Below, piece by piece: positions 44,796-48,262 of a DNA stretch of 64,000 nt. Numbering within the stretch: the stretch's first letter is position 1; each line of letters begins with the position of its first letter. Origin of the DNA: Armatimonadota bacterium (GTDB lineage Bacteria > Armatimonadota > UBA5829 > DTJY01); assembly GCA_029907255.1 (NCBI GenBank), contig JARYMF010000004.1, positions 124,001-188,000 of the forward strand, written 5' to 3'. The position numbers were made by a program, and so were the translations under genes. The notes under the pieces are model-generated. The model saw only the letters and a list, made by a program, of their open reading frames with translations, was not told the DNA's origin and ran no database searches.

Positions 44796-45215
44796 ATGGT
44801 GGTTCATGAAAAGTCCATTGTAATAAATGCACCTGTTCACCAGGTATTCCAAATGTGGCAGAATTTCGAAAATTTCCCCACTTTTATGTCGCACATCAAA
44901 GATGTTGTGATGCTTGATGGTAGAAGATCGCATTGGAAAGCTAAGGTTGCAGGCCTCGACGAAGAATGGGAAGCAGAAACAACCAAGGTCGAAGAAGACA
45001 AAGTAATCGGCTGGAGGTCGGTATCCGGACTACAAAACAGCGGCGAAGTAAGGTTCGAGCCGGTGGATGGAAAAACCCAGCTCACCGTCCATATCGAGTA
45101 TGAGCCGCCAGCAGGCTTTCTAGGAGATGTGGCTGAGGCACTATACGTAGGCAGCCGCTTCGATTCCGAACTTGAGGAAGATCTCCGACGATTCAAGGCG
45201 AAAGTCGAGGGTTGA
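44796..45215 (+). CDS. SRPBCC (polyketide cyclase/COQ10-like) family protein
   Basis: The 139-residue product follows GAGGAGGG. It has the START/COQ10 helix-grip pattern: SIVINAPVHQVFQMWQNFENFPTFM at the start, DVVMLDGRRSHWKAKVAGLDEEW in the sheet, and KVIGWRSVSGLQNSG with GEVRFEPVDGKTQLTVHIEY. A C-terminal helix (EALYVGSRFDSELEEDLRRF) closes the cavity. Such proteins bind small hydrophobic ligands; members of this type often lie beside stress or redox genes. The ligand is unknown. It is not clearly linked to the downstream riboswitch. Confidence 0.88.
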   Translation: MVVHEKSIVINAPVHQVFQMWQNFENFPTFMSHIKDVVMLDGRRSHWKAKVAGLDEEWEAETTKVEEDKVIGWRSVSGLQNSGEVRFEPVDGKTQLTVHIEYEPPAGFLGDVAEALYVGSRFDSELEEDLRRFKAKVEG

Positions 45216-45311
45216 TAACTTTATCCTTATCGGTAGCCTTAGACCAAAACCAGTAAATCTACGGGCACTCGAGCAGCAATTATATGGCATAAATAAAATG
45301 GAAGACAATTT

Positions 45312-45465
45312 GGTCAAGGCTTACCGAAAAAGGCAAATCCGACCGAAAGGCGGAGACGCAAAGCTATGGGTCTAAACCGAATGTGGCGCCGGAAACTGCC
45401 GGAGGATGAGTGAAGAATTGAGCTGGCTGCTGCGTTCGGATGACTGCCAGGCTGCCGAAGCAAGC
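45312..45465 (+). ncRNA. Cyclic-di-GMP-I (GEMM) riboswitch aptamer
   Basis: GGCAAAT (from 45332) is followed by a TCCG..CGGA helix capped by GAAA (45344-45347), then the diagnostic GACGCAAAGC (45354-45363) and GGGTCTAAACC. The 3' half has TTCGGATGACTGCCAGGCTGCCGAAG (ending 45460). CCGAA/TTCGG closes P3, and GCTT (45319-45322) pairs with AAGC (45458-45461) at the base. P3 carries an inserted ~50-base extension. The A in GACGCA (the intercalating A47 in the Vc2 aptamer) and a G in the first GGC (G20) are present, pointing to c-di-GMP rather than cGAMP. Confidence 0.9.
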
Positions 45466-45510
45466 GAAGATTAAAGAGCGCTAGGAATTTCGGCAGCCTG
45501 GTTTGCGTTT
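45447..45510 (+). terminator. Riboswitch-linked terminator (mutually exclusive with aptamer 3' end)
   Basis: CCAGGCTGCCGAA (45447-45459), which is the 3' strand of the aptamer, is an exact complement of TTCGGCAGCCTGG (45489-45501). AGCG/CGCT inside the loop adds a second stem, and TTTGCGTTT follows. Pairing here destroys the aptamer. So ligand binding should prevent the terminator and switch downstream genes on. Confidence 0.75.
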
Positions 45511-45547
45511 GGGGATTTTCGGATAAACGGCATGGGGGCTCAAAGGC

Positions 45548-45577
45548 CATTAGCCAAGGAGGATAAAATGGCTAATG
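45548..45577 (+). promoter_or_regulatory. Hairpin presenting the ribosome binding site of the Cys-rich gene
   Basis: CATTAGCC (45548-45555) pairs exactly with GGCTAATG (45570-45577). The 14-base loop holds AAGGAGG and the first two bases of the start codon. This could expose or hinder the ribosome site and adds a second layer of control. Confidence 0.5.
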
Positions 45578-45768
45578 TATGTAGCAACTACGATGTGAGA
45601 GGGTGCCCCGCGAGCTTTTATCTAAACTGCCCCGCGTACTTAACCGACCGCAACTGCTGGGACGTCGAAAAAAGACCCTGCTGTCATAAAAGAGATTCTT
45701 CCGAATGTCAAACTTGTTGGGTATACCAAACCGCGTTGAAATACTTAAACCAAGAAACAAAAACATAA
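45568..45768 (+). CDS. Small eight-cysteine protein under c-di-GMP riboswitch control
   Basis: ATG 45568 follows AAGGAGG. The 66-residue product has eight cysteines at about 5, 13, 21, 30, 38, 39, 47 and 50, with RNCWDVEKRPCCHKR and ECQTCWVYQTALKYL. The C-W...C-C...C-x-x-C-W-V-Y spacing recalls small CW-type iron-sulfur or zinc proteins found in anaerobic bacteria, but I cannot name the family. There is no signal peptide. It is the first gene after the riboswitch and is separated by 118 bases from the c-di-GMP enzyme gene, so it may be a c-di-GMP output. Confidence 0.75.
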   Translation: MANVCSNYDVRGCPASFYLNCPAYLTDRNCWDVEKRPCCHKRDSSECQTCWVYQTALKYLNQETKT

Positions 45769-45852
45769 CTACGCAAAGCATTATCTAGCAAGTTAAGCCT
45801 AAAGAAAAAAGGCTACTAAACCGACGCTAAGAATGGGAGAAATATACTACTA

Positions 45853-45870
45853 GGCTTGAATGACCAAGCC
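45853..45870 (+). promoter_or_regulatory. Short hairpin ahead of the HD-GYP/GGDEF gene
   Basis: GGCTTG (45853-45858) and CAAGCC (45865-45870) are exact complements just upstream of ATG 45887, which has no clear ribosome binding site. It could modulate translation; there is no T run for termination. Confidence 0.4.
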
Positions 45871-45886
45871 AACTTAATTACAAAAG

Positions 45887-48262
45887 ATGAAGAACGAACG
45901 ACTAGCTACTATCACGTTTGCATTACTTTGGGTTACTATACTGACAGTTTTTTCCTTCGGGTCCCACTATGCCAATGCGCTTGTAGTCCACGCTCTGCTG
46001 GCAATTCTTACAAGCATTAAAGGATGTTACCTGTTTCGGCAAGATGGAGGCCGTTCATCAGCCGGCACACTTACTTATGCCGCGGCAATTAATTTTGGAA
46101 TTGCTGGTGGACTATTAATTGGAGCCATAACCGCCACGTGCCATGCCGGACCTGATGGTAAAACTGTTATTGCTCCAAGAAATAAGTTCGTAGCAAGGTT
46201 CATGGGTGGCGCAGTTGCTGGAGCCTTGTCAGCCATCATCTATGCAAAACTTAATGCTCTCATTTGTCCCGCTAATTTCCTTTCGGAAGCAGTCGTGCTG
46301 CTTTCGCCTGCAATTGTATGCTTTGCCATAATCACGTTTGCAGAAGCGATGACAACAAAATTGTTGGCAGGGAATTCGCTCCGCGAACGACTAGAGCTTA
46401 ACGCACCCCCCATGGTCGAATTGGCTTCGGGAATCGCTCTCGCGTTGGGTGTCCGCGTGCTCTATGAACTTTACTCATGGGATCCAATGCTCCTTGTCCT
46501 ACCAATCGTCTATTTAGCAAAGCAGACATACATGGAGCTTTTACCACCCCAAAAATCCATCCCTAGCAGTGCACTTCCAAATAAACTTGCGGACGTATAC
46601 CTGTCAACTCTCCAGTCAATAGTCACCGCCATCGATGCAAAGGACCGCTTTGCAAGGTCTCATACGGCAAACGTCGAGTCAATCTCCGTGGCAATCGCAC
46701 AAGAAATGGGCTTGTCCCCAACCGAAGTCGAAGGAGTTCGGACTGCGGCGCTCCTCCACGACGTTGGAAAGCTCGGTGTCCCCGAGCATGTTTTGCTGAA
46801 GCCAGGAAAATTTGACTCCCATGACATGACAACCATCCAGACACATTCAGCTCTTGGCCAAAAGATACTCGACAGCGTAAGTTTCCCATGGCCTGTCGGT
46901 GCAATGATACGTAGCCACCATGAGCGGTGGGATGGCACAGGGTATCCTGATGGCCTCAAGGGTGAAGAGATTCCTTTAGGTGCAAGGATCTTGGCTGTTG
47001 CTGATGTCTACGACGCAATGACTTCCAAGCGTTCTTATCGTCCAAGCTATAGCCCCCAGCAAGCCTTGGACTACATTAGAAAAGCAAGTGGCACGCAGTT
47101 CGATCCAGCAGTTTTCCGCGCCTTCGAACGAGCGATTGCAAAGGGAAATATCCCCGGCCTAAATAACGAGGAAATCGCCGAGATTTCTGCAAGCCTCGAT
47201 ACAAAAAAACCTGGGAAAGCTGACAAACCCAAGACACCACAAACTAGTGTTGCAGAAGAGCTTTCCAGGGCAAGCCATGAGTTCCTAGCAATGTTTGAGA
47301 TAGCGCAGACAGCAAGTACAAGTCTCAATCTCGACGAGGTACTAAACCTAATAGCTAACAAGATAAGCAATATGATTGCGTGCTCAACGTGTGTCATATT
47401 CCTCAAAGATGAAGAGTCAAACAAGCTTCTAGCACGGATTGCCGTTGGAGTAAACGCTGATTACTTTGAGGGAGGACGCACAATTATAGGCCAAGGTCTT
47501 ACCGGCGTAGTCGCTGAGACTGGTGAGGGCCTTATAGCCGTATATGACAGAAACGATGTAATGCTCAGACAGCTCTTTGGACGCTGGATTGAACTAAAAA
47601 GCGTAATGATAGTACCAATCACACATGGAGACAAAGTAATCGGCACCATAAACCTTTACGATACTAAAGACCAAGCCTTCAGCGAAGAAGACTTCCACAT
47701 CCTTTGCACGGTTGCCCCGCAGGTAGGTAAGGCAATCCAAAATGCTCTACTCTTTGAGCGCACGAAAGAGTCCGCCCTTACCGATGCCTTGACTGGCTTA
47801 CACAACGCAAGATATCTTTTTATGCACCTTGAGCAAGAACTAAGCCGGGCAAAGCGCACATTTAAGCCAGTATCTGTTCTTGGCCTTGACCTTGACAACT
47901 TCAAGCCCATAAATGACACCTTTGGGCATCAGCAAGGAGATATCGTGCTTTCGGAGATTGGTAAAGTCTTCCTTTCTCAAGTGCGGGATTATGATTTAGT
48001 ATGCCGGTGCGCTGGGGACGAATTCATTATCGTTCTCCCAGAAACCGAAAAACATGAAGCAATTGAAACTGCCGAAAGAATAAAAGCCGCAGTTGAAGAG
48101 TATGTCCCTCACCTTCCTCATGATAAGCCGTTCCGCCTTGGAGTTAGTATAGGCGTTGCAACTTATCCTGAAGATGGTTCGGATGTGCGCACACTCATTG
48201 CAAAAGCTGACGAGGCAATGTACGCAGACAAAAGACGCCGAAAAAATATGTGTGCAGCTTAA
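45887..48262 (+). CDS. Membrane HD-GYP + GAF + GGDEF cyclic-di-GMP turnover protein
   Basis: The 791-residue product has six or seven membrane segments in its first ~215 residues. An HD-GYP phosphodiesterase domain follows, with HDVGK (His291, Asp292), SHHERWDGTGYPDGL and ADVYDAMTSKRSYRP. A GAF domain occupies about 465-610. A diguanylate cyclase domain is about 630-785, with LDLDNFKPINDTFGHQ and active-site AGDEF (709) in place of GGDEF. The inhibitory RxxD (RDYD) lies five residues before it. The enzyme may both make and break c-di-GMP. It follows the riboswitch and Cys-rich gene on the same strand. The start codon has no clear ribosome site. Confidence 0.93.
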   Translation: MKNERLATITFALLWVTILTVFSFGSHYANALVVHALLAILTSIKGCYLFRQDGGRSSAGTLTYAAAINFGIAGGLLIGAITATCHAGPDGKTVIAPRNKFVARFMGGAVAGALSAIIYAKLNALICPANFLSEAVVLLSPAIVCFAIITFAEAMTTKLLAGNSLRERLELNAPPMVELASGIALALGVRVLYELYSWDPMLLVLPIVYLAKQTYMELLPPQKSIPSSALPNKLADVYLSTLQSIVTAIDAKDRFARSHTANVESISVAIAQEMGLSPTEVEGVRTAALLHDVGKLGVPEHVLLKPGKFDSHDMTTIQTHSALGQKILDSVSFPWPVGAMIRSHHERWDGTGYPDGLKGEEIPLGARILAVADVYDAMTSKRSYRPSYSPQQALDYIRKASGTQFDPAVFRAFERAIAKGNIPGLNNEEIAEISASLDTKKPGKADKPKTPQTSVAEELSRASHEFLAMFEIAQTASTSLNLDEVLNLIANKISNMIACSTCVIFLKDEESNKLLARIAVGVNADYFEGGRTIIGQGLTGVVAETGEGLIAVYDRNDVMLRQLFGRWIELKSVMIVPITHGDKVIGTINLYDTKDQAFSEEDFHILCTVAPQVGKAIQNALLFERTKESALTDALTGLHNARYLFMHLEQELSRAKRTFKPVSVLGLDLDNFKPINDTFGHQQGDIVLSEIGKVFLSQVRDYDLVCRCAGDEFIIVLPETEKHEAIETAERIKAAVEEYVPHLPHDKPFRLGVSIGVATYPEDGSDVRTLIAKADEAMYADKRRRKNMCAA

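Follow-up and report, generated by a model that had tools for sequence, protein, structure and literature searches.

Results and Discussion

Does c-di-GMP permit or prevent expression of the genes that lie behind its riboswitch at this locus? Within the 64,000-nucleotide stretch of Armatimonadota DNA analyzed here (the window), the original prediction had placed a c-di-GMP-I riboswitch at positions 45312-45510 and had proposed that the terminator of this element is built with the 3′ strand of the aptamer itself. We consider it very probable that this element is a class I c-di-GMP riboswitch which works at the level of transcription termination, and that it is an ON switch. The features on which this reading draws are collected in Table 1.

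Table 1. Features of the riboswitch locus, in window coordinates
Feature	Positions	Strand	Evidence
Putative extended -10 element TGGCATAA, which would place the transcription start near 45300	45285..45292	+	Recurrence of the motif ahead of class aptamers
Class I c-di-GMP aptamer, GAAA loop in P2, P3 longer by ~50 nt	45323..45460	+	RF01051 and RF03167 matches (68.7 and 59.5 bits), the latter with its alignment
Strand with two roles: in the aptamer, junction C, P1 (3′ side) and the P3 base; in the terminator hairpin, the 5′ half	45446..45460	+	15-bp complementarity; covariation in the class
3′ half of the terminator hairpin	45488..45502	+	Complementarity, covariation, folding
U tract TTTGCGTTT, interrupted, where termination is predicted	45502..45510	+	Sequence; U-rich tails at the same place in relatives
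66-aa Cys-rich protein, first gene past the switch, AAGGAGG before the ORF	45568..45768	+	Homologues in class genomes
CTAAAG-N16-CCGACGCTAA, which may serve the enzyme gene as an internal promoter of sigma-28-like type	45799..45830	+	Conservation; likeness to flgM promoters
Membrane protein of 791 aa (HD-GYP, GAF and GGDEF domains)	45887..48262	+	Pfam; ortholog in genome G004

Identity and Architecture of the Aptamer

Searching the window's genome directly with RF01051 identified a class I c-di-GMP (GEMM-I) aptamer at 45323-45460, which scores 68.7 bits and thus lies 33.7 bits above the curated cut-off of 35 bits. This match, the Infernal comparison that had been suggested as a check, bears out the aptamer call, and the sequence quoted as diagnostic of the aptamer, GACGCAAAGC, indeed occupies 45355-45364. 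When the whole window was scanned with cmscan, the single match returned was to RF03167 (c-di-GMP-I-GGC) at the same positions, where its 59.5 bits narrowly pass the cut-off of 59; the cmscan output omits the lower-ranked overlapping clan member at this site. RF03167 is therefore Rfam's preferred label here, with a margin over its cut-off of only 0.5 bit.

The aptamer resembles RF01051 in sequence, in its three helices, in its GAAA loop and in its pocket bases, but differs in length (138 nt against the 87 positions of the model) because of the extension of P3. The ~50-nt extension had been described as larger than usual; it is real, yet its size is not exceptional, since 29 of 90 c-di-GMP-I loci from the same bacterial class are at least 120 nt long. 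Within the class a long P3 is a common trait and nothing special. P1, in which the Rfam alignment pairs C45325 with G45457 and G45326 with C45456, is weak, and CUU at 45320-45322 could add to it by pairing with AAG at 45458-45460. The window's genome contains four c-di-GMP-I elements in all, and at least one such element is present in 24 of 28 class genomes.

Ligand Pocket

We take the pocket bases to be G45332, A45360 and C45455, corresponding to G20, A47 and C92 in the numbering of the Vc2 riboswitch, which we transferred by motif. This mapping started from the RF03167 alignment, and the numbering was partly adopted from PMC6274999, where A47 appears as A41, the residue that provides base stacking between both ligand bases. 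Position 47 in the window is the canonical A, as can be seen by comparing GACGCAAAGC with GACGCGAAGC in the RF03167 consensus, and A also stands at this position in every class aptamer that is readable by pattern. Position 20 is G, and cGAMP-type switches carry A there; base pairing with the other ligand base falls to C45455. The aptamer thus combines an RF01051 score with the G20/A47/C92 set of that family. It matches RF03167 in overall sequence and structure, its score just exceeding the cut-off, but lacks the G47 of that consensus, and it lacks the A20 of the cGAMP-selective GEMM-Ib group. Overall resemblance is what supports the GGC label; we reject it as a variant assignment on the diagnostic base at position 47, and we reject cGAMP sensing by this copy on the G at position 20.

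A canonical c-di-GMP pocket is the best reading of this aptamer. We consider it very unlikely that the aptamer senses another dinucleotide, be it 3′,3′-cGAMP as in the GEMM-Ib type or the preferred ligand of RF03167, with switching unchanged. RF03167 does top the Rfam labels at this site, and some class relatives carry A20 like cGAMP switches, but this copy presents G20 together with A47, and the half-bit margin for RF03167 compares poorly with that for RF01051.

A Strand Shared by Aptamer and Predicted Terminator

The segment CCAGGCTGCCGAA (45447-45459) is the exact complement of TTCGGCAGCCTGG (45489-45501), and when G-U pairs are included the helix reaches 15 bp (45446-45460 with 45488-45502) and is followed by TTTGCGTTT. 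The complementarity that had been claimed for the last 13 bases of the aptamer is therefore exact, and the helix extends beyond them. It scores 36, whereas 40 dinucleotide shuffles of the downstream sequence averaged 17.6 and did not exceed 25, and the isolated 72-nt hairpin has a folding energy of -31.7 kcal/mol (z -3.6). Transcript folding, which models thermodynamics at equilibrium, gave a best fold to 45510 of -77.7 kcal/mol with the terminator, compared to -56.2 kcal/mol with the terminator strand held unpaired. In growing transcripts the probability of the helix stays at 0.00 until 45488 and then rises through 0.57 at 45496 to 0.97 at 45504. These energies and probabilities suggest that in the absence of ligand the terminator should win once it has been transcribed, and that only a ligand-stabilized aptamer could resist. 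Since forming the helix takes up P1 and the P3 base along with the C that contacts the ligand, the bound aptamer and the terminator would exclude each other, which predicts an ON switch.

Class I c-di-GMP OFF switches are known, for example Cd1 and Vc2 (PMC9262584), and the ligand could in principle drive termination or block translation here too. We judge this highly improbable, because the sole strong downstream hairpin uses up the aptamer's own strand, a pattern scan of 45200-45900 returned no other terminator-like site, and the ribosome-binding site follows ~50 nt past the hairpin. The same simple scan did not report the site at 45446-45510 either, because the hairpin loop of ~27 nt exceeds the limit of the scan and the U tract is interrupted. 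Given this loop and the short, interrupted TTTGCGTTT, termination at the predicted ON switch could be weak.

Conservation and Covariation

The comparative set comprised the 90 c-di-GMP-I loci of the class. A complement of the aptamer 3′ strand that beats all 40 shuffles occurs within the downstream 160 nt at 27 of 89 loci, and in 22 of these 27 T makes up half or more of the 10 bases that follow. Overall, about 30 of the 90 loci show the same arrangement, with paired changes on both strands. To read these changes we used 32 helices aligned on the conserved C of the aptamer. The pairs found were A-T (23), G-C (6) and C-G (1) at position -6, G-C (25) and A-T (5) at position -5, T-A (25) and C-G (3) at position -2, and A-T (9) and T-A (7) at position -10, counts which come from related sequences, from an alignment that was made on the helix itself and so favors it by construction, and from a set in which some few may be chance helices. 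A third copy in the window's genome (G000:C5) forms a similar, imperfect hairpin, likewise with the aptamer 3′ strand. In the sister species (G003) the 199 nt of the element carry 0 substitutions and differ only by 4 nt inserted into the terminator loop, compared to 16 substitutions in the 201 nt of the gene for the 66-aa protein that comes next. The aptamer, the sharing of its strand, the conservation and the covariation can all be read from the sequence, and the proposal that aptamer and predicted terminator share one strand is confirmed, the sharing being conserved and covarying in relatives.

These comparisons also bear on whether the hairpin terminates at all. The interrupted U tract, the long loop and the missing call by the pattern scan would fit a genuine aptamer with a non-terminating hairpin, which could represent a decayed or weak platform or act via RNA stability or translation. 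We find this unlikely, as the hairpin strand is free of substitutions in the sister species and relatives with the same hairpin carry better U tracts, for example TTTTCTTTTT and TTTTTGTGTTTTT.

Proposed Mechanism and Known Systems

We infer ligand binding, termination and its direction as follows. The RNA would begin near 45300, and the aptamer (45323-45460) would fold first. Without ligand, 45488-45502 would, once transcribed, capture 45446-45460 in the 15-bp hairpin ahead of the U-rich tract, and transcription would halt near 45510. Bound c-di-GMP would instead hold P1 and the three-way junction and block the terminator hairpin, so that the polymerase could continue into the 66-aa Cys-rich gene and probably into the HD-GYP/GAF/GGDEF gene too.

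The GEMM-I riboswitch of Geobacter metallireducens pilM is an experimentally established transcriptional ON switch, in which aptamer and terminator are mutually exclusive and the ligand permits read-through (PMC9262584). The element in the window resembles pilM in that its terminator takes the 3′ strand of the aptamer and the two folds are exclusive, with the ligand effect being a prediction here. It differs in its pocket, which is canonical for c-di-GMP whereas pilM senses cGAMP, and in a P3 that is ~50 nt longer; and pilM controls pilus genes, while the switch in the window precedes a small Cys-rich protein and an HD-GYP/GGDEF enzyme. The presence of a c-di-GMP enzyme downstream and the demonstration of the same mechanism for pilM (PMC9262584) support the ON reading. 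The mechanism as such is already known, and the window copy is a well-supported member of the type published for pilM. The paired changes on aptamer and terminator strands provide comparative support for a pilM-type mechanism in this bacterial class, in which we know of no experiment on it. The Bc1 riboswitch from Bacillus thuringiensis also belongs to class I, and its terminators unfold on addition of c-di-GMP (PMC11218506); unlike the switch in the window with its one terminator, Bc1 has two and an added effect on translation.

As for the start of this transcript, the motif GGCA[TC]A[AG] occurs in 36 of 89 stretches upstream of class aptamers, compared to 2 in shuffled stretches. Ahead of many aptamers that do not precede flgM, AAACC[GA]GTA followed some 30-40 nt on by GGCATAA recurs (about 45246-45292 in the window); the first motif may be an activator site and the second an extended -10 element.

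Downstream Genes

Homologues of the 66-aa Cys-rich protein are encoded in 13 of 28 class genomes, and in 12 of these 13 the gene lies 0.1-4.4 kb downstream of a c-di-GMP-I element on the same strand. A Pfam search with this protein returned no match; its C-W and C-x2-C spacing is reminiscent of small Cys-rich sensor domains. The HD-GYP/GGDEF ortholog of G004 directly follows a riboswitch of its own, and the association of c-di-GMP-I elements with these downstream genes is kept across the class. Through such a clean ON switch c-di-GMP would control both the unnamed Cys-rich protein and an enzyme that turns c-di-GMP over, which would suggest riboswitch feedback on this turnover.

The enzyme gene may not depend on the switch alone, because the intergenic stretch 45769-45842 is conserved, a single substitution separating it from G003 over 74 nt, and may be an internal promoter. 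The candidate motif in this stretch resembles CTAAAG-N16-CCGATAA, which precedes flgM copies, and a search of 45769-45842 for a further Rfam element gave none at E values up to 5. Of the two, a sigma-28-like internal promoter seems the more likely guess for this stretch.

Other c-di-GMP-I Leaders in the Class

In class flgM leaders the aptamer is followed after a short distance by a segment GUUUGCCUUUUU that is complementary to the aptamer's 5′ core AAAAGGCAAAC (L103, that is G000:C9, L006, L009, L022, L036, L044, L050, L051 and other flgM leaders), and when 18 leaders with such a segment were folded, the minimum-energy structure of 15 contained this pairing. The arrangement looks like a second strand-stealing platform, which would control the flagellar anti-sigma factor. 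Sigma-28-like promoters of the form CTAAAG-N16-CCGATAA lie ~25-30 nt ahead of flgM aptamers, for example in L006, L009, L022, L036 and L051, so that flgM would be under sigma-28 as well as c-di-GMP. Literature judged by title or abstract yielded no report of a c-di-GMP riboswitch controlling flgM.

In aptamers that precede the gene for a 64-aa MxIPEAKQY protein, position 20 is the cGAMP-type A in five genomes (G027:C56, G023:C288, G025:C22, G026:C127 and G011:C139) and the c-di-GMP-type G in seven, including G024:C2:164263, G000:C11, G003:C14 and G002:C40. This base differs even within one genus (g17), and a natural change of ligand is possible. We tentatively suggest, as a view that may well prove wrong, that the class uses two strand-stealing ON platforms, one in which the terminator invades the 3′ strand of the aptamer and one in which GUUUGCCUUUUU invades the 5′ core in flgM leaders, that these connect c-di-GMP with an enzyme that turns it over as well as with the flagellar anti-sigma factor, and that some relatives are retuned to cGAMP by one base.

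Class I switches are widespread both in tandem and as single copies (PMC9481103), and several class genomes carry tandem c-di-GMP-I aptamers ~20 nt apart (L086, L075, L073, L049 and L104).
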